Assembly: GCF_002090115.1 (NCBI RefSeq)
Contig: NZ_BBRK01000004.1
Coordinates: forward strand, 1,612,001-1,676,000
DNA from: Demequina sp. NBRC 110054
GTDB taxonomy: Bacteria; Actinomycetota; Actinomycetes; Actinomycetales; Demequinaceae
DNA length: 64,000 nucleotides
Direction of reading: 5' to 3'
Shown here: positions 13,968-50,708 of the stretch, one piece after another
How the letters are laid out: the number at the start of each line of letters is the position of its first letter
How positions within the stretch are numbered: position 1 is the first letter of the stretch
The notes under the pieces: model-generated
Told to the model about the DNA's origin: nothing
Seen by the model: the letters and a program-made list of their open reading frames with translations, nothing else
Database searches by the model: none
Translations under genes and position numbers: made by a program

Positions 13968-13983
13968 GTCCCAGACCCGCTTC

Positions 13984-14025
13984 GACTCAGGCCCGGCTCC
14001 CGTTCGCGGGGGCCGGGCCTGAGTC
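13984..14025 (+). terminator. Strong hairpin terminator after typA
   Basis: GACTCAGGCCCGGC (13984-13997) pairs with GCCGGGCCTGAGTC (14012-14025), a perfect 14-bp stem with a G/C-rich loop. Its right arm overlaps the first unit of a 22-bp direct repeat. Confidence 0.8.
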
Positions 14026-14086
14026 GTCTGCGGGCCTCGCCTGAGTCGTCTGCGGGCCTCGCCTGAGTCGTCTGCGGGCCTCGCCT
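14021..14086 (+). repeat. Three perfect 22-bp tandem repeats
   Basis: Three identical head-to-tail 22-bp units at 14021-14042, 14043-14064 and 14065-14086, each starting GAGTCGTCTGCGGGCC and ending TCGCCT; a partial fourth (GAG.GGTC) follows. The units begin with the right arm of the typA terminator, so several alternative hairpins with the left arm GACTCAGGC are possible. The array lies in a 282-bp gap without genes. Confidence 0.9.
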
Positions 14087-26980: not shown

Positions 26981-27571
26981 ATGACCACGGCCACCACCCC
27001 AGCCTCGGTCGAGGCTGCTCCGGCGCTGCCGGAGGAGCTCACCTGGGAGCGCATCGTCGAGGAGCACTCGGGACGGGTCTACCGTCTCGCGTACCACCTC
27101 ACGGGAAACCAGCACGATGCGGAGGACCTCACGCAGGACGTGTTCGTCCGCGTGTTCAACTCGCTGTCGCAGTACAAGCCCGGCACGTTCGAGGGCTGGC
27201 TGCACCGCATCACCACGAACCTCTTCCTCGACCGCATGCGCCGCAAGAAGCGCATCCGCTTCGACTTCATGGCGGACGACGACGCGGCCGTCTCGACCTC
27301 CGAGAGCTTCGACCGTCACGAGCGCTCGGGGCAGCCCGAGGACGCGTTCGACATGGCGAACCTCGGTGACGACATCGTTGCCGCGCTCGCCGACCTTCAG
27401 CCCGAGTACCGCGCCGCGGTCGTGCTGTCCGACATCGAGGGCCTCTCCTACGAGGAGATCGCCGCGACGCTCGGCATCAAGATGGGCACGGTCCGCTCGC
27501 GCCTGTCGCGTGCCAGGGCGAAGCTGCGCGAGTCCCTCGCGCACCGGGCGCCCGCGCGGAGCGACGGATGA
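26981..27571 (+). CDS. sigE: ECF sigma factor SigE
   Basis: 196 residues. Region 2 runs from about 25 to 95 ([23 protein letters not shown] in two parts, with [12 protein letters not shown] for -10 recognition), region 4 from about 135 to 185 ([20 protein letters not shown]). The gene is followed by a zinc anti-sigma, htrA and tatB, the order of Mycobacterium sigE-rseA-htrA-tatB, so it should direct the envelope-stress response. AAGGAGG seven bases before ATG 26981 sets the start; an upstream ATG at 26939 lies within the promoter. The stop codon overlaps the anti-sigma start (ATGA). Confidence 0.93.
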
Positions 27572-30260: not shown

Positions 30261-30291
30261 TGCGCGGGCCGGGTGCTTCCCGGCCCGCGCA
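30261..30291 (+). terminator. Strong hairpin between htrA and tatB
   Basis: TGCGCGGGCCGGG (30261-30273) and CCCGGCCCGCGCA (30279-30291) form a perfect 13-bp stem with a TGCTT loop. It should end much of the sigE-rseA-htrA transcript, leaving tatB to its own promoter. Confidence 0.8.
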
Positions 30292-33740: not shown

Positions 33741-33769
33741 AGGGCCGGGACGACGCGCGTCCCGGCCCT
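33741..33769. terminator. Bidirectional terminator between the hypothetical gene and sdhB
   Basis: AGGGCCGGGACG (33741-33752) and CGTCCCGGCCCT (33758-33769) form a perfect 12-bp stem with a 5-nt loop. The plus strand continues CTCTCG and the minus strand continues TTCGC, so it could serve both convergent genes. Confidence 0.75.
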
Positions 33770-34565: not shown

Positions 34566-36335
34566 TCAGTACTTGCGTTCCATCGGCTGGTACCGCGTCA
34601 CCACGACCGGCTTGTAGTCGAGCCGGAGCCCGTCGTCCTCGCCGTAGACCATGGTGTGCTGCATGAAGTTCTCGTCGTCCCTGGTGGGGTAGTCCTCGCG
34701 GTAGTGGCCGCCGCGGGACTCCTTGCGATTGAGGGCGCCGAGCACGACGACCGCGGACAGCTCGAGCAGGAAGCCGAGCTCCATCGCCTCGAGCAGATCG
34801 GTGTTGTACCGCTTGCCTCGGTCGTGGATCGCGATGCTCGCGTAACGCTCGCGCAGTCTCGCGATGTCCTCCTGCGCCGTGGTGAGCGACGTCTCGTCGC
34901 GGAACACCTGGGCGTTCCTGTCCATCGTCTCCTGGAGCTCCTTGCGCAGCGCCGCGATCGATTCCGAGCCGCTTGTGCCGACTGTCGAGCGCAGGCGCTC
35001 GACAGTCTCGATCAGCGGCGTGGCCGCCGACTCGTCGAGCGGCGCGGCCTCGTCCGTGGCGAGCGCGTGCTCCGCGGCGGCGATGCCCGCGCGGCGACCG
35101 AACACGTTGAGGTCGAGCAGCGAGTTGGTGCCGAGGCGGTTGGCGCCGTGAACGGACACGCATGCGCACTCGCCGGCCGCGTAGAGGCCGTTCACCTTGC
35201 TCGTGTTGTTGCGCAGCACCTCGCCGTGGACCGTCGTGGGGATGCCGCCCATCGCGTAGTGCGCGGTGGGGTACACAGGCACGGGCTCGGTGTAGGGCTC
35301 GACGCCCAGGTATGTGCGCGCGAACTCCGTGATGTCGGGAAGCTTGGCGTCGATGTGCGCGGGCTCGAGGTGAGTGAGGTCCAGGAGCACATAGTCCTTG
35401 TGCGGACCGCAGCCGCGGCCCTCGCGCACCTCGTTGGCCATCGCGCGCGCCACCATGTCGCGCGGCGCGAGGTCCTTGATCGTGGGCGCGTAGCGCTCCA
35501 TGAAGCGCTCGCCCTCGCTGTTGCGCAGGATGCCGCCCTCGCCTCGTGCGGCCTCCGACAGCAGGATGCCGAGACCGGCCAGGCCCGTCGGGTGGAACTG
35601 GAAGAACTCCATGTCCTCGAGCGGAAGCCCCGCGTTGAACGCGATCGCCATGCCGTCGCCCGTGAGGGTGTGGGCGTTCGACGTCGTCTTGAAGACCTTG
35701 CCGGCGCCACCCGTGGCGAACAGCACCGACTTCGCGCGGAACGTGTGGACCTCGCCCGTCGCGAGCTCGTAGGCGACGACCCCGGCGACCGAGACCGTCT
35801 CATCGTCCGGGGTGGACTGCGGGTCCTTGTCCAGGACCAGCTCGAGGACGTAGAACTCGTTGAAGAACTCGACCTCTTGCTTGATGCACTGCTGGTACAG
35901 CGTCTGGAGGATCATGTGGCCCGTGCGGTCGGCCGAGTAGCAGGCGCGACGCACCGCGGCCTCGCCGTGGTTGCGAGTGTGGCCGCCGAAGCGGCGCTGG
36001 TCCACGTGACCGTCCTCGGTCCGGTTGAACGGCAGGCCCATGTTCTCGAGGTCGAGCACCGCCTGGGGCGCCTCGGTGCACAGGATCTCGGCCGCGTCCT
36101 GGTCGACCAGGTAGTCGCCGCCCTTGATCGTGTCGAACGTGTGCCACTCGGCGTTGTCGTCCTCGACGTTGCTCAGCGCGGCGGCGATGCCGCCCTGCGC
36201 CGCACCCGTGTGGGAGCGCGTGGGGTAGAGCTTCGAGATCACGGCGGTGCGCGCCCGCTGCGAGCTCTCGAGGGCCGCGCGCATGCCGGCACCACCGGCG
36301 CCGACGATGACGACGTCGTACTCGTGAAGGGTCAT
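34566..36335 (-). CDS. sdhA: Succinate dehydrogenase flavoprotein subunit
   Basis: 589 residues. The FAD dinucleotide loop [14 protein letters not shown] is at the start and the covalent FAD His is His42 in [12 protein letters not shown]. Catalytic His/Arg regions include [11 protein letters not shown] and [14 protein letters not shown]. It oxidises succinate to fumarate. The ATG overlaps the sdhD stop codon (ATGA). Unusually, a perfect 13-bp inverted repeat lies within the coding sequence at 34980-35007 (see separate entry). Confidence 0.97.
34980..35007. repeat. 28-bp inverted repeat inside sdhA
   Basis: GACTGTCGAGCGC (34980-34992) and GCGCTCGACAGTC (34995-35007) are perfect 13-bp arms around AG. 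It falls in a variable, surface-helix region of SdhA (TVERLRSTV) where codon choice is free. Such perfect symmetry by codon constraint alone is unlikely. Confidence 0.85.
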
Positions 36336-39642: not shown

Positions 39643-39678
39643 CGAGGGGCGCGCTGCGTGGACGCGGCGCGCCCCTCG
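39643..39678 (+). terminator. Intercistronic hairpin between the BMP and ATPase genes
   Basis: CGAGGGGCGCGC (39643-39654) and GCGCGCCCCTCG (39667-39678) form a perfect 12-bp stem. In ABC operons such hairpins commonly attenuate transcription or protect the upstream mRNA so that the binding protein exceeds the transporter. Confidence 0.65.
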
Positions 39679-46549: not shown

Positions 46550-47620
46550 ATGACTCTCACCCCGGACGAGATCCGTGCCCTCCCCAAGGTCGTCCTCCAC
46601 GATCACCTCGACGGCGGACTCCGCCCGGAGACCCTCATCGAGCTCGCCGAGGAGATCGGCTACGAGCTGCCGTCCGGCGACGCCGACCTGCTGTCGAAGC
46701 ACTTCATCGCGAACTCGAACTCGGGCGACCTGGTGCGCTACCTCGAGGCGTTCACGCACACCTCCGCGGTGATGCAGAGCGCAGCGAACATCACGCGCAT
46801 CGCGCGCGAGGCCGTGATCGATCACGCCCGCGACGGCGTCATCTACCTCGAGCTGCGCTACGCGCCCGAGCTGCACACCCAGCAGGGGCTCATCATGCAG
46901 GAGGTCGTCGACGCGGTGACGCTCGGGATCGAGGAGGGCGTGTCCGACGCGCTCGAGGAGGGCTACACGATCCGTGCGGCCGCGCTGCTGTGCGCGATGC
47001 GGCAGAACAGCCGCTCACTCGAGGTCGCCGAGCTCGCCCTCGCGAACTGGGGGACCGGCTGCGTCGGCTTCGACATCGCGGGGCCCGAGGCCGGCTTCCC
47101 GCCCGCCAAGCACGCCCCGGCGTTCACGCTGCTGCGGGACGAGCTGTTCCCGGTGACCATCCACGCGGGCGAGGCCGACGGGGTCGACTCCCTGGCGCAG
47201 GCGCTCGGCCTCGGCGCAGCGCGCCGCATCGGGCACGGTGCGAGGATCACGGAGGACATCACGGACTTCGGCACCGAGATGCCGATCTTCGGGCACGTCG
47301 CGCAGTACGTGCTCGACCAGCAGATCCCGCTCGAGATCTGCCCCACGTCCAACGTGCACACGGGCGCGGCGGAGTCGATCGCCGAGCACCCCATGCACGA
47401 GCTGCGCGACCTGGGCTTCGCGATCACGATCAACACGGACGACAAGCTCATGTCAGGCGTCGACATGGTCAGCGAGTTCTCCGACCTGATCGACGTGGGC
47501 TGGACCAAGGCGGACCTGTTCGAGGCGACGCTCGCCGCCGCATGGGGCGCGTTCCTGCCGTACGACGAGCGCGCTGACCTCGCGGATTTCATCGTCGCCG
47601 GCTACGGGATGGACGACTAG
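46550..47620 (+). CDS. add: Adenosine deaminase
   Basis: 356 residues. Zinc ligands are visible: LHDHLDGGLRPET (two His), TIHAGEAD (His, Glu), GHGARI (His) and NTDD (Asp). SNVHTG is the usual Ser-Asn substrate motif. It deaminates adenosine and deoxyadenosine to inosine, which punA can phosphorolyse. TAGCCT at 46538-46543, using the stop codon of the previous gene, is 6 nt before ATG, so an internal leaderless promoter is possible. Confidence 0.94.
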   Translation: MTLTPDEIRALPKVVLHDHLDGGLRPETLIELAEEIGYELPSGDADLLSKHFIANSNSGDLVRYLEAFTHTSAVMQSAANITRIAREAVIDHARDGVIYLELRYAPELHTQQGLIMQEVVDAVTLGIEEGVSDALEEGYTIRAAALLCAMRQNSRSLEVAELALANWGTGCVGFDIAGPEAGFPPAKHAPAFTLLRDELFPVTIHAGEADGVDSLAQALGLGAARRIGHGARITEDITDFGTEMPIFGHVAQYVLDQQIPLEICPTSNVHTGAAESIAEHPMHELRDLGFAITINTDDKLMSGVDMVSEFSDLIDVGWTKADLFEATLAAAWGAFLPYDERADLADFIVAGYGMDD

Positions 47621-47625
47621 GTCCC

Positions 47626-47679
47626 GCTCCTGCATTCCCCGCAGCGTTGCCGGTGGGGTCGGCGTGGCTCCTGCATTCC
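47626..47679 (+). repeat. Paired 13-mer GCTCCTGCATTCC, 41-nt period
   Basis: GCTCCTGCATTCC occurs at 47626-47638 and 47667-47679, exactly 41 nt apart, in the gap between add and deoC. A closely related pair with the same 41-nt period lies at 53770-53830 on the opposite strand. The 28 nt between the copies differ. Confidence 0.8.
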
Positions 47680-47712
47680 GCTCGGTGCGGCGCGAGCGCC
47701 TAGGCTGGTCCC

Positions 47713-48405
47713 ATGACTCTTACGCGTTCCGAGCTCGCCCAGTACGTCGACCACACCCTCCTCAAGCCCGAGTCGACCCCGGCCGACGTCGCGGCGCTCG
47801 TCGCGGAGGGTGCCTCGCTCGGCGTCTTCTCCGTGTGCGTCTCGCCCTCGATGCTTCCGATCGCCACGCCCGAGGGCCTCGCGGTCGCCACGGTGTGCGG
47901 CTTCCCGTCCGGCAAGCACCACTCGTCGGTCAAGGCAGCCGAGGCCGCGCTCAGCATCGAGCAGGGCGCCGACGAGGTCGACATGGTGATCGACATCGCC
48001 GCCGCGAACGAGGGCCGCTTCGAGGACGTCCAGGCCGACGTGGCCGCCGTGCGCGCCTCGGTGCCCGAGGGCAAGATCCTCAAGGTCATCATCGAGTCGG
48101 CCGCGCTCACGGATGAGGCGATCGTGGGCGCGTGCGAGGCCTCGGAGGCCGCGGGCGCTGACTTCGTGAAGACCTCGACCGGCTTCCACCCCGCGGGCGG
48201 CGCCTCGGTGCACGCCGTGGAGCTCATGGCGAAGACCGTCGGTGGCCGCCTCGGCGTCAAGGCCTCGGGCGGCATCCGCACCTCGGAGGCCGCGCTCGCG
48301 ATGATCGAGGCCGGCGCGACGCGCCTGGGCCTGTCCGGCACTGCCGCGGTGCTCGATGGCTTGGATGGCGTGGTCGCCGAGACCGAGGGCGACGGCGGGT
48401 ACTGA
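47713..48405 (+). CDS. deoC: Deoxyribose-phosphate aldolase
   Basis: 230 residues, class I aldolase with a TIM barrel. [10 protein letters not shown] carries one catalytic Lys, and VKASGGIRT the Schiff-base Lys near 187; [11 protein letters not shown] supplies Asp. It splits deoxyribose-5-phosphate into acetaldehyde and glyceraldehyde-3-phosphate, the end of the salvage path begun by cdd, deoA and add. TAGGCT at 47701-47706 lies 6 nt before ATG, so it has its own, probably leaderless, promoter. Confidence 0.96.
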
Positions 48406-48426
48406 TTTTCTTCTTCTCTTCGTCGT

Positions 48427-48469
48427 CATCGGCCCTTCCTCCGGACATGTACGGGGTGAAGGGCCGATG
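48427..48469 (+). terminator. Long-loop hairpin after deoC
   Basis: CATCGGCCCTTC (48427-48438) and GAAGGGCCGATG (48458-48469) form a perfect 12-bp stem; inside, CCG and CGG can add an inner stem. It is preceded, not followed, by a pyrimidine run and lies just upstream of the ribosome binding site of the next gene, so besides ending deoC transcripts it may regulate that gene. Confidence 0.6.
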
Positions 48470-48484
48470 TCGTAGGAGGAGTCA

Positions 48485-49147
48485 ATGAACTACCAGGACC
48501 GAGAGAACGAGGCGCTCGACGCGCTCCTCGACGGTTCCGCGCCACAGGTGTCGGCCGTCACGCGTGAGCGCTCCGCGGCGATGGGTGCACTGCTCGACGA
48601 CGTGCATCCCGCGCGGCCTCGGCGCTCGTGGCGCACCTGGGCGGCGTTCGGTGGGGCGGCGCTGCTCCTCGGCGCTGGCGGCGTGGCCACCGCCGAGAGT
48701 CGTCCCTGGGAGTCCTGGTGGGCTGACGATGCGGTGACCGAGCTGTCCTACATGCTCCCCAGCGGGGCGGTGTGCACGGGGATCATCGGCAACATCTACG
48801 GGCCCGAGGAGTCGGTCGCGGCCGCTGAGGAGTTCCTCGCGCAGCCCGACCTCCTGGAGATACTCGAGCCGGCGATCGCCGCCCAGGTCGGCGACCTGGT
48901 GGACGCTGTCAGGACGGCGGAGCTCGCAGACGGGCAGACGGTGGACGCAGGCCCCGGCACACCGTACTGGTCGGATGACGTCGCCTACCACGATGCGGTG
49001 TGGGACGCCGCTGTGGACGCGATGTACGCGCAGCTCGAGGAGGACGGTTACGAGATCGACGGGTTGAGCATCTCCGGCGAGGAACGATGCCCCGCCCTGG
49101 TCCCCGCCGAATCGGACGACTACGACTCCATCGAGTCCCATGACTGA
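48485..49147 (+). CDS. Membrane protein paired with an ECF sigma factor (putative anti-sigma)
   Basis: 220 residues of unknown family. The N-terminal 45 residues are charged and helical (NEALDALLDGSAP, ERSAAMGALLDDV), then one membrane helix (about 52-70), then an acidic extracytoplasmic domain with two Cys (AVCTGI, ERCPAL). There is no HxxxCxxC motif. It overlaps the ECF gene that follows by 8 bp, so the two are co-expressed. The layout suggests an anti-sigma factor, but the order is reversed from usual. TAGGAGGAG is a strong ribosome binding site. Confidence 0.6.
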   Translation: MNYQDRENEALDALLDGSAPQVSAVTRERSAAMGALLDDVHPARPRRSWRTWAAFGGAALLLGAGGVATAESRPWESWWADDAVTELSYMLPSGAVCTGIIGNIYGPEESVAAAEEFLAQPDLLEILEPAIAAQVGDLVDAVRTAELADGQTVDAGPGTPYWSDDVAYHDAVWDAAVDAMYAQLEEDGYEIDGLSISGEERCPALVPAESDDYDSIESHD

Positions 49148-49622
49148 CGCGGAGGAGGCGCTGCGCGCCCACGGCGACGACCTCCTCGCGTACCTCGAGC
49201 GACGTGTCGGGCGAGACGATGCGGCTGACGCCCTCGCGGAGACGTTCGCCACGGCCTGGCGACGCGCCGCGGACATGCCACCCGATCTGCAGGAGGCGCG
49301 CCTATGGCTCTTCGGGGTCGCACGGATGACGGCGGCCAACACTGGACGTGCAGGTCGTCGGCGCAGCCGCCTGGTCGCGACGCTGCGAGACGCCATGGTC
49401 ACGGCCGCACCCGCGGCTGATCGTGGGGTCGAGGTGCGGGACGCGATCGCGCGGCTCGAACCCGACCAGGCCGAAGTGGTGAGGCTGCGGCATTGGGAGG
49501 GGCTCACGCTGGCCGAGGCGGCTGTGGTGCTCGACGAGCCCGCCTCCACGGTGCGCAGCCGCTACGCCCGCGCGCGGGCCGTTCTTGCCGAGGCGCTCGC
49601 GGACGAGGGCGTCGCCGACTGA
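49140..49622 (+). CDS. Small ECF RNA polymerase sigma factor
   Basis: 160 residues. Region 2 is short (LLAYLERRVGRDDAADALAETFATAWRR, in two parts) with a WLFGVARM segment, and region 4 is clear (LRHWEGLTLAEAAVVLDEPASTVRSRYARAR). The linker is minimal. The target promoters are unknown; no GGAAC-type promoter is visible before the pair. The start is fixed by an 8-bp overlap with the upstream membrane-protein gene. Confidence 0.8.
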   Translation: MTDAEEALRAHGDDLLAYLERRVGRDDAADALAETFATAWRRAADMPPDLQEARLWLFGVARMTAANTGRAGRRRSRLVATLRDAMVTAAPAADRGVEVRDAIARLEPDQAEVVRLRHWEGLTLAEAAVVLDEPASTVRSRYARARAVLAEALADEGVAD

Positions 49623-49695
49623 GCGGGCAGCGGCGCCGGGACGATCCGAGTCCACTGGCCGAGGACGCTGCGCCGACCCGTGCGACCATGAGCGG

Positions 49696-50124
49696 GTGAC
49701 CGACCCCCGACTCGATGAGCTTGCGACCCTGCGCCGTGTCCGGGACCGCATCGATCGCGAGCATGCTCAGCCTCTCGACGTCGAGGCCCTCGCACGTGGT
49801 GTCCACATGTCGGCCGGCCATCTGAGCAGGCGGTTCAAGGCCGCTTACGGAGAGTCGCCGTACTCGTATCTCATGACCCGTCGCGTCGAGCGGGCGATGG
49901 CGCTCCTGCGTCGCGGCGATGTCTCCGTCACCGAGGCGTGCTTCGAGGTCGGCTTCTCCTCGCTCGGCACGTTCTCGACGCGCTTCGCCGAGCTGGTCGG
50001 CATGCCGCCGAGCGAGTACCGCGAGCGAGCGGCCACGCATCCGGTCGACCTTCCGACCTGCGTGGTCAAGGCAGCGGCGAGACCGGTCAGGAATCGAGAA
50101 GCGCCGCCGCTCGCTCGCGCGTAG
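49696..50124 (+). CDS. AraC-family transcriptional regulator
   Basis: 142 residues, essentially just the DNA-binding domain. The two helix-turn-helices are clear: [20 protein letters not shown], and [20 protein letters not shown] with [21 protein letters not shown]. The missing sensor domain suggests control by abundance or by a partner. It precedes a VOC gene by 10 bp, a frequent pair in actinobacteria, so it may regulate that gene. GTG start at 49696. Confidence 0.88.
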
Positions 50125-50134
50125 CGTCGCAGTC

Positions 50135-50539
50135 ATGAAGCTCACGATTCAGCACACGTTCGTTCCGCACACCGACCCCGAGGCCTCGCTCGCGTTCTAC
50201 CGCGACTCGCTCGGATTCGAGGTCCTGAATGACGTCGGAGGGGGTCCCATGCGGTGGATCACCGTCGGCTCGTCCGACGGCGGCACCACCGTCGTCCTCA
50301 CCCCTCCGGCCGCAGATCCCGGCATCACCGACGACGAGCGCCGCGTGATCGCCGAGATGATGGCCAAGGGCACCTACGCGGCGCTCGTGCTTGCCACGGA
50401 CGATGTCGACGAGGCGTTCGCGCGGATCGAGGCGACCGGCGCCGAGGTGGTGCAGGAGCCGACCGACCAGCCGTACGGCGTGCGCGATTGCGCCTTCCGG
50501 GACCCCGCCGGCACCATGGTCCGCATCCAGCAGCGCTGA
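50135..50539 (+). CDS. VOC family protein next to AraC regulator
   Basis: 134 residues with glyoxalase-fold modules: [19 protein letters not shown] at the start and [16 protein letters not shown] at the end. Substrate unknown. TAGCGT at 50122-50127 lies 7 nt before the ATG, overlapping the stop codon of the araC-like gene, so it may have its own leaderless transcript. Confidence 0.85.
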
Positions 50540-50708
50540 ACCGCGCCCGAGCCCGCGCGAAGCCAACGCGAAGCTCCGGCGACGCCCGCGCGACGACCTG
50601 GCGACGCCGGCGCTCGCCCAGAGAACGGCGCGCGCCGCATCGTCCCTGGTGGGACAATCGCCGCGTGAGCGCGAGCGACCCGGACCCCGCGCCATCGCAG
50701 GAGGCCCC

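Follow-up and report, generated by a model that had tools for sequence, protein, structure and literature searches.

Gene layout and sigma factor

The DNA analysed (the window) is a stretch of 64,000 nt from contig NZ_BBRK01000004.1 of Demequina sp. NBRC 110054, in which the gene for a membrane protein, a putative anti-sigma factor, is followed on the same strand by the gene for an ECF sigma factor (Table 1). The stop of the first gene and the start of the second share 8 bp (ATGACTGA), exactly as described in a preceding model-made reading of the letters (the sequence-only reading). As judged from the window sequence, the overlapping pair with the partner gene placed before the sigma gene is real.

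Judged by its profile matches, the sigma gene product is a minimal ECF sigma factor composed of region 2 and region 4. Its scores were above the cut-offs for NCBIfam TIGR02937, with 52.1 bits against 42.9, and for Pfam Sigma70_r4_2, with 52 bits against 25.7; that of Pfam Sigma70_r2 was barely reached (24 bits at a cut-off of 24). The solved structure closest to the sigma family profile was SigL of M. tuberculosis (6dv9, E 8.3e-21). Elsewhere in the window, another strong Sigma70_r2 match (E 5.6e-21) was located at 27053-27253, within a 354-aa open frame.

Upstream of the pair, the ORFs between 43810 and 48405 form what we take to be a nucleoside catabolism cluster, with cytidine deaminase, thymidine phosphorylase, adenosine deaminase and deoC. 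Downstream, the sigma gene is followed by an AraC-type gene and a glyoxalase-superfamily gene; the same two genes were found after the sigma gene in loci L002, L003 and L004, and not in the other five of the eight loci read.

Table 1. Features of the locus in window coordinates; domains of the membrane protein are given as residues.
Feature	Position	Strand	Basis or remark
-35-like box TCGTCA	48423..48428	+	starts 18 nt before the core
Hairpin, perfect 12-bp stem with 19-nt loop	48427..48469	+	arms 48427-48438 and 48458-48469
Conserved core CCGGACATGTA, putative -10 region	48441..48451	+	leader alignment
Predicted transcription start region	48457..48459	+	general ECF promoter geometry
Ribosome binding site AGGAGG	48474..48479	+	sequence; 5 nt before ATG 48485
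Membrane protein gene, putative anti-sigma factor	48485..49147	+	ORF, 220 aa
Membrane protein domains	cytoplasmic 1-50, span about 52-70, ectodomain from about 72		predicted topology
ECF sigma gene	49140..49622	+	ORF, 160 aa; regions 2 and 4 only
AraC-type HTH gene, possibly same operon	49697..50124	+	PF12833, 2.4e-25; start 49697 by eye
Glyoxalase-superfamily protein gene	50135..50539	+	PF00903, 1.3e-22

Membrane protein

Homologues of the membrane protein were compared in an alignment of 67 proteins (A5), comprising 56 of the 69 loci in which the partner gene comes first (see below) and 11 others. Duplicates (L076, L080, L086, L100), near-copies (L105, L114), one short sequence (L092) and six loci with a start miscalled by the script (L087, L108, L125, L130, L134, L143) were omitted.

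The hydrophobic peak of the window protein is modest, with a mean Kyte-Doolittle value of 1.44 at residues 52-70. In the homologues, a basic stretch is followed by a single hydrophobic span, R50 being near-invariant in the alignment. This peak begins at residue 52 of the window protein and between residues 43 and 60 in 61 of the 63 homologues with a trusted start; the predicted cytoplasmic domain thus spans about 50 residues or less, which is the size of the class II (CnrY-type) domains. The ectodomain contains exactly two cysteines, C97 and C202, whose positions are invariant in 67/67 aligned proteins. The motif HxxxCxxC was present in the cytoplasmic part of none of the 67 homologues, confirming the absence of a zinc motif that had been noted at the outset and setting the family apart from the zinc anti-sigma factors (class I, ZAS).

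AlphaFold2 predicted N-terminal helices at residues 3-17 and 27-40 and modelled the membrane span poorly. The alpha/beta ectodomain was predicted with confidence, residues 81-200 having block pLDDT values of 91-98; the mean pLDDT was 85.5 and the pTM 0.66. When the ectodomain was compared with solved structures, Foldseek gave nothing at E 0.001 or better and the top row of VIA-align, among ties, had a Z of 4.3 only (a FliL fragment, rmsd 3.2, 84 residues), revealing no clear relative. The two helices were predicted separately from a fused-chain model of membrane protein and sigma factor, which had a final pTM of 0.47 and an unreadable geometry. Trial alignments for that model had put membrane proteins on the sigma half, and no conclusion on docking was taken from it.

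The window protein had no counterpart in Pfam at E up to 1, and in NCBIfam it matched a single family, far under the cut-off. Matches among the 67 homologues were isolated and weak, such as one to an anti-sigma model (E 0.0088) and one, in 1 of the 67, to the CU044_5270 family (NCBIfam NF038083; E 3e-4, family cut-off 100 bits). The window protein gave no match to NF038083 at E up to 1 and is not assigned to this family.

Conservation of the pair and of its gene order

The membrane protein gene was found directly upstream of the sigma gene in 69 of 80 named sigma loci, four of which (L076, L080, L086, L100) duplicate L003, L039, L008 and L002. Eight of the 11 others have the sigma gene first, two (L099, L126) lie at contig ends, and L138 has a broken sigma frame with no membrane protein seen, reflecting either decay or sequencing error. 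The sigma start overlaps the membrane protein stop by 4 nt in 64 of the 69, a position that was one favoured by the start-calling script, by 8 nt in two and by 1 nt in two, with one ambiguous case. As a separate observation, L024 (= L224) has a broken sigma frame beside an intact membrane protein gene, again attributable to decay or sequencing error.

Starting from the membrane protein, eight of the 59 genomes of relatives and eight of the 44 genomes of the genus were found to have a homologue, the own genome being included in both counts, and the sigma gene lay directly downstream of it in all eight such genomes among the 59 examined. Order-wide, a search of 198 genomes detected the membrane protein in 19 of them, at 22 places with an E below 1e-13, weak matches up to E 0.001 being kept outside the counts; absences weigh little here, because only 15 candidates were scored per genome. 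Three of the 22 places yielded no locus. In all 19 loci obtained, the sigma gene comes after the membrane protein gene; nine of these loci overlap the earlier set, and one sigma gene is broken.

The cognate pair in inverted order, as proposed in the sequence-only reading, is therefore kept in several families, as evident from 69/80 sigma loci and 19/19 membrane protein loci. An unrelated upstream gene in homologues had been named as the finding that would speak against the pairing; it was not encountered in those 69 of the 80 loci, while eight have a membrane protein downstream instead and the remaining three (L099, L126, L138) did not permit a judgement. Since the pair is kept with the membrane protein gene upstream across many loci, we conclude that the inversion is a stable trait of a large group and not an accident of the Demequina genome.

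The sigma-first order was found in eight more distant relatives (Streptosporangiaceae, Blastococcus and an Acidimicrobiales MAG; L142, L145, L147-L152), where a membrane protein gene is second and again overlaps the sigma gene. In a quick tree of 91 sigma factors, the gene-order label switches once, with moderate support (SH-aLRT 84); which order is older is not given by this tree, because its root was placed on the sigma-first rows.

Flanking genes differ between genera, except in 18 loci of Microbacterium and kin (the named ones belonging to Microbacterium or its family), where the gene after the pair is presumably ffh. As the flanks are not common across genera, the two genes travel as a unit. 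Within Demequina, several copies of the pair come after deoC.

Promoter-like element before the operon

Alignment of the leaders revealed a bipartite element before the first gene of the operon. Its 11-bp core is near-invariant, occurring in all 11 leaders aligned, once with ATATA replacing ATGTA, and is preceded by a TCGTC or GGACG box that resembles a -35 element and starts 17-18 nt before the core across leaders, so that the spacing is nearly constant. At least 9 of the 11 core positions were matched in 64 of 69 leaders, compared with 2.3% of Markov shuffles (20 for each of 69 regions) and, in a control, with just 3 of 69 stretches from the sigma gene interior. The same level was reached in 17 of the 19 order-wide loci, leaving 5/69 leaders and 2/19 order-wide loci below it.

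For the eight sigma-first loci, the best core matches within 300 nt upstream of the sigma gene were 11, 11, 10, 10, 10, 10, 8 and 8 of 11, the score of 8 in two loci being at chance level; some of these loci carry a GGAAC-like box. In either gene order the element thus accompanies whichever gene opens the operon, which is what self-regulation would lead one to expect.

Over 70 leaders, the window included, the -35-like box was GGACG-like in 50, TCGTC-like (the window type) in 13 and neither in 7. The pattern TCGTCA-N12,16-CCGGACATG occurred once in the window and in none of 100 shuffles. Residue 140 of the sigma factor is S in 13/13 cases of the TCGTC type and in 8/50 of the GGACG type, the seven leaders of neither type being left out; this covariation was dropped, since the -35 type changed only twice on the tree and significance cannot be reached. 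A second Demequina subfamily (L018, L019, L020, L070, L071, L072) was observed to have a longer ectodomain and a changed promoter core, combining a GGAC box with CCGGCATG or CTGGCATG.

Conservation of such a promoter-like element ahead of the operon is expected of an autoregulated ECF operon, and the claim that the pair has its own control is supported in this form (64/69 leaders, and 18 of 22 sites in the genome search below). By sequence and position, the element behaves like the operon's own promoter, which the sigma factor would recognise.

Leader hairpin

The perfect stem of 12 bp with a 19-nt loop that had been reported in the leader is exact. The fold of the leader RNA was much stabler than that of shuffles (z -5.75, 0/200). 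Six distinct perfect stems of at least 12 bp with loops of 3-25 nt were counted in the window, and four Markov shuffles gave 0, 3, 2 and 1 (nested counts included). The stem is not a product of chance, though perfect stems of this size recur in the window; five others, of 12-15 bp, were located at 13983-14026, 30261-30291, 33741-33769, 34980-35007 and 39643-39678.

Folding of 32 leaders gave a z of -3.41 for the window copy and values from +0.84 to -2.14 for the remaining 31, and a search of Rfam returned two microRNA matches, far under the thresholds. The hairpin was rejected as a conserved riboregulator, its folding not being conserved in the other 31 leaders. The suggestion that it is the control element of the pair is not supported, for the same reason: the stem is not conserved, and the conserved part is the DNA core, which sits inside the loop. 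Moreover, the operon's own transcript would be without the stem, because the predicted start falls in the 3' arm, at its foot. The hairpin is probably a local by-product around the start signal.

It is doubtful that the hairpin acts by itself, either as a terminator of deoC or by masking the ribosome site when transcripts read through from deoC, which would restrict translation to RNA from the operon's own promoter. The stem begins 22 nt past the deoC stop, and the fold of the read-through RNA pairs 7/8 bases of AGGAGGAG at 48474-48481, the ribosome site, while RNA starting from 48458 folds worse than shuffles (z +1.96, 197/200 shuffles at least as stable). These observations are countered by the lack of conservation of the stem in relatives' leaders and by simple scans of 47600-50700, in which neither an intrinsic terminator with a T-run nor a housekeeping promoter was detected. 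Local silencing of read-through translation by the hairpin is possible, the hairpin not being the conserved feature, and could hold in the Demequina strain alone, beside a promoter driven by the operon's own sigma factor as the main explanation.

Search for further targets

The exact core occurs once in the own genome, at the leader of the pair; a looser pattern gave 88 matches and was uninformative. The pattern GGAC-N13-CCGGACANGT was sought in 18 whole genomes and matched at 22 sites. Sequence identity showed 18 of them, spread over 16 genomes, to be the leaders of the pairs themselves; a reversed control pattern matched at 2 sites. Recovery of the leaders is no test, because the pattern was derived from them; the informative outcome is the scarcity of other sites, and more diverged targets would escape such a search. 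In relatives, 31 further exact copies of the core were read, a subset of the copies listed, and 29 of them lie inside a same-strand ORF of at least 100 aa and 2 outside, ORF placement being weak evidence in GC-rich DNA. A regulon beyond the operon was thus not supported, with no clear target outside the pairs' operons in the own genome, the 18 genomes or the copies in relatives. For a regulator, this absence is odd.

An alternative in which a different regulator or sigma factor acts at the 11-bp core and switches the pair on is regarded as unlikely. The own genome offers candidates, with 22 Sigma70_r2 matches, and the core is longer than the usual ECF -10 element. Autoregulation is nevertheless the better fit to the near-fixed spacing between the core and the -35-like box and to the position of the core at the head of the operon in either gene order, and the bipartite copies are mostly confined to the sigma factor's own operons (18/22 sites, 18 genomes).

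Comparison with known systems

The nearest solved sigma factor, SigL of M. tuberculosis, likewise has a membrane-bound partner. This partner, RslA, is a zinc anti-sigma factor encoded after sigL, whereas the Demequina pair is without a zinc motif and has the reversed gene order.

CnrYXH of Cupriavidus metallidurans, with the class II anti-sigma factor CnrY and the ECF sigma factor CnrH, resembles the window pair in that the anti-sigma gene precedes the sigma gene. Two helices of CnrY are reported to embrace CnrH (PMC4598750), and a further study kept anti-sigma domains shorter than 50 residues apart as possible class II members (PMC7406223). CnrY and the window protein share a short cytoplasmic part of two helices, modelled in the latter case, followed by one membrane span, which for CnrY was read from its sequence. 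In contrast to CnrYXH, no CnrX-like gene lies between the genes of the Demequina pair, and the window protein differs from CnrY in its large ectodomain with two invariant cysteines and in its actinomycetotal host. CnrY was not found by the N-terminal family profile, appearing at table line 132, about rank 129, in a search of 464 decoys plus CnrY. The membrane protein may, on its modelled short two-helix cytoplasmic domain, follow the plan of class II and not its sequence; it may work like a class II factor and is not called a member, because the profile misses CnrY.

In Acinetobacter, the report on SigAb-AabA-AabB (PMC12153292) describes a sigma factor that drives its own operon and has three direct targets, and a small partner, AabA, with anti-sigma activity and a CnrY-like model. 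The Demequina pair is alike in the CnrY-like plan of a small putative anti-sigma domain, the overlapping genes and the conserved, predicted self-driven promoter; in the Acinetobacter system, however, the sigma gene is first, and the likeness is one of plan. Among the literature matches listed, which covered few subscription papers, none was recognised as describing the pair.

Proposed mechanism and significance

We consider it likely that the locus is a two-gene envelope-signalling module, in which a membrane-anchored, zinc-free anti-sigma factor holds an ECF sigma factor that drives its own operon. The N-terminal two-helix domain would most likely keep the sigma factor inactive at the membrane, and a signal at the ectodomain with its one conserved cysteine pair would release it. 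The freed sigma factor would then direct RNA polymerase to the predicted promoter at 48423-48451 (TCGTCA - N12 - CCGGACATGTA). As this promoter is just upstream of the membrane protein gene, the operon would drive itself, while the overlap of stop and start codon would keep the production of partner and sigma factor coupled.

A non-inhibitory upstream protein, be it a positive partner (a sensor or tether that the sigma factor requires for activity) or a membrane effector switched on by the sigma factor, would fit the missing Pfam match of the window protein, the isolated and weak matches among its 67 homologues, one of them to an anti-sigma model, and the genome's only exact core at its own promoter, which makes the membrane protein itself the main visible output. 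It is quite improbable in view of the constant pairing with the sigma gene, the short cytoplasmic domain before one membrane span and the eight sigma-first relatives, in which a membrane protein gene sits right after the sigma gene, the usual place of an anti-sigma gene.

From the original idea, the cognate inverted pair with its own control has thus gained support at the level of sequence, and the hairpin as control element has not. A more far-reaching and less probable reading is a self-contained zinc-free signalling switch of Micrococcales and other Actinomycetota, with itself as the only clear genomic target. Its -10 element would be of unusual length, its gene order would have switched once on the sigma tree, and its sensor would have one cysteine pair and no clear solved relative. 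If the module indeed targets only itself, its output would be the levels of membrane protein and sigma factor, or nearby passenger genes, for example the AraC/glyoxalase pair.

The module is unnamed in the Pfam and NCBIfam copies used, and it supplies a promoter sequence open to testing, along with candidates for a zinc-free anti-sigma domain and for a sensor domain. At stake is whether reversed gene order and self-targeting together mark a distinct way of running an ECF switch.
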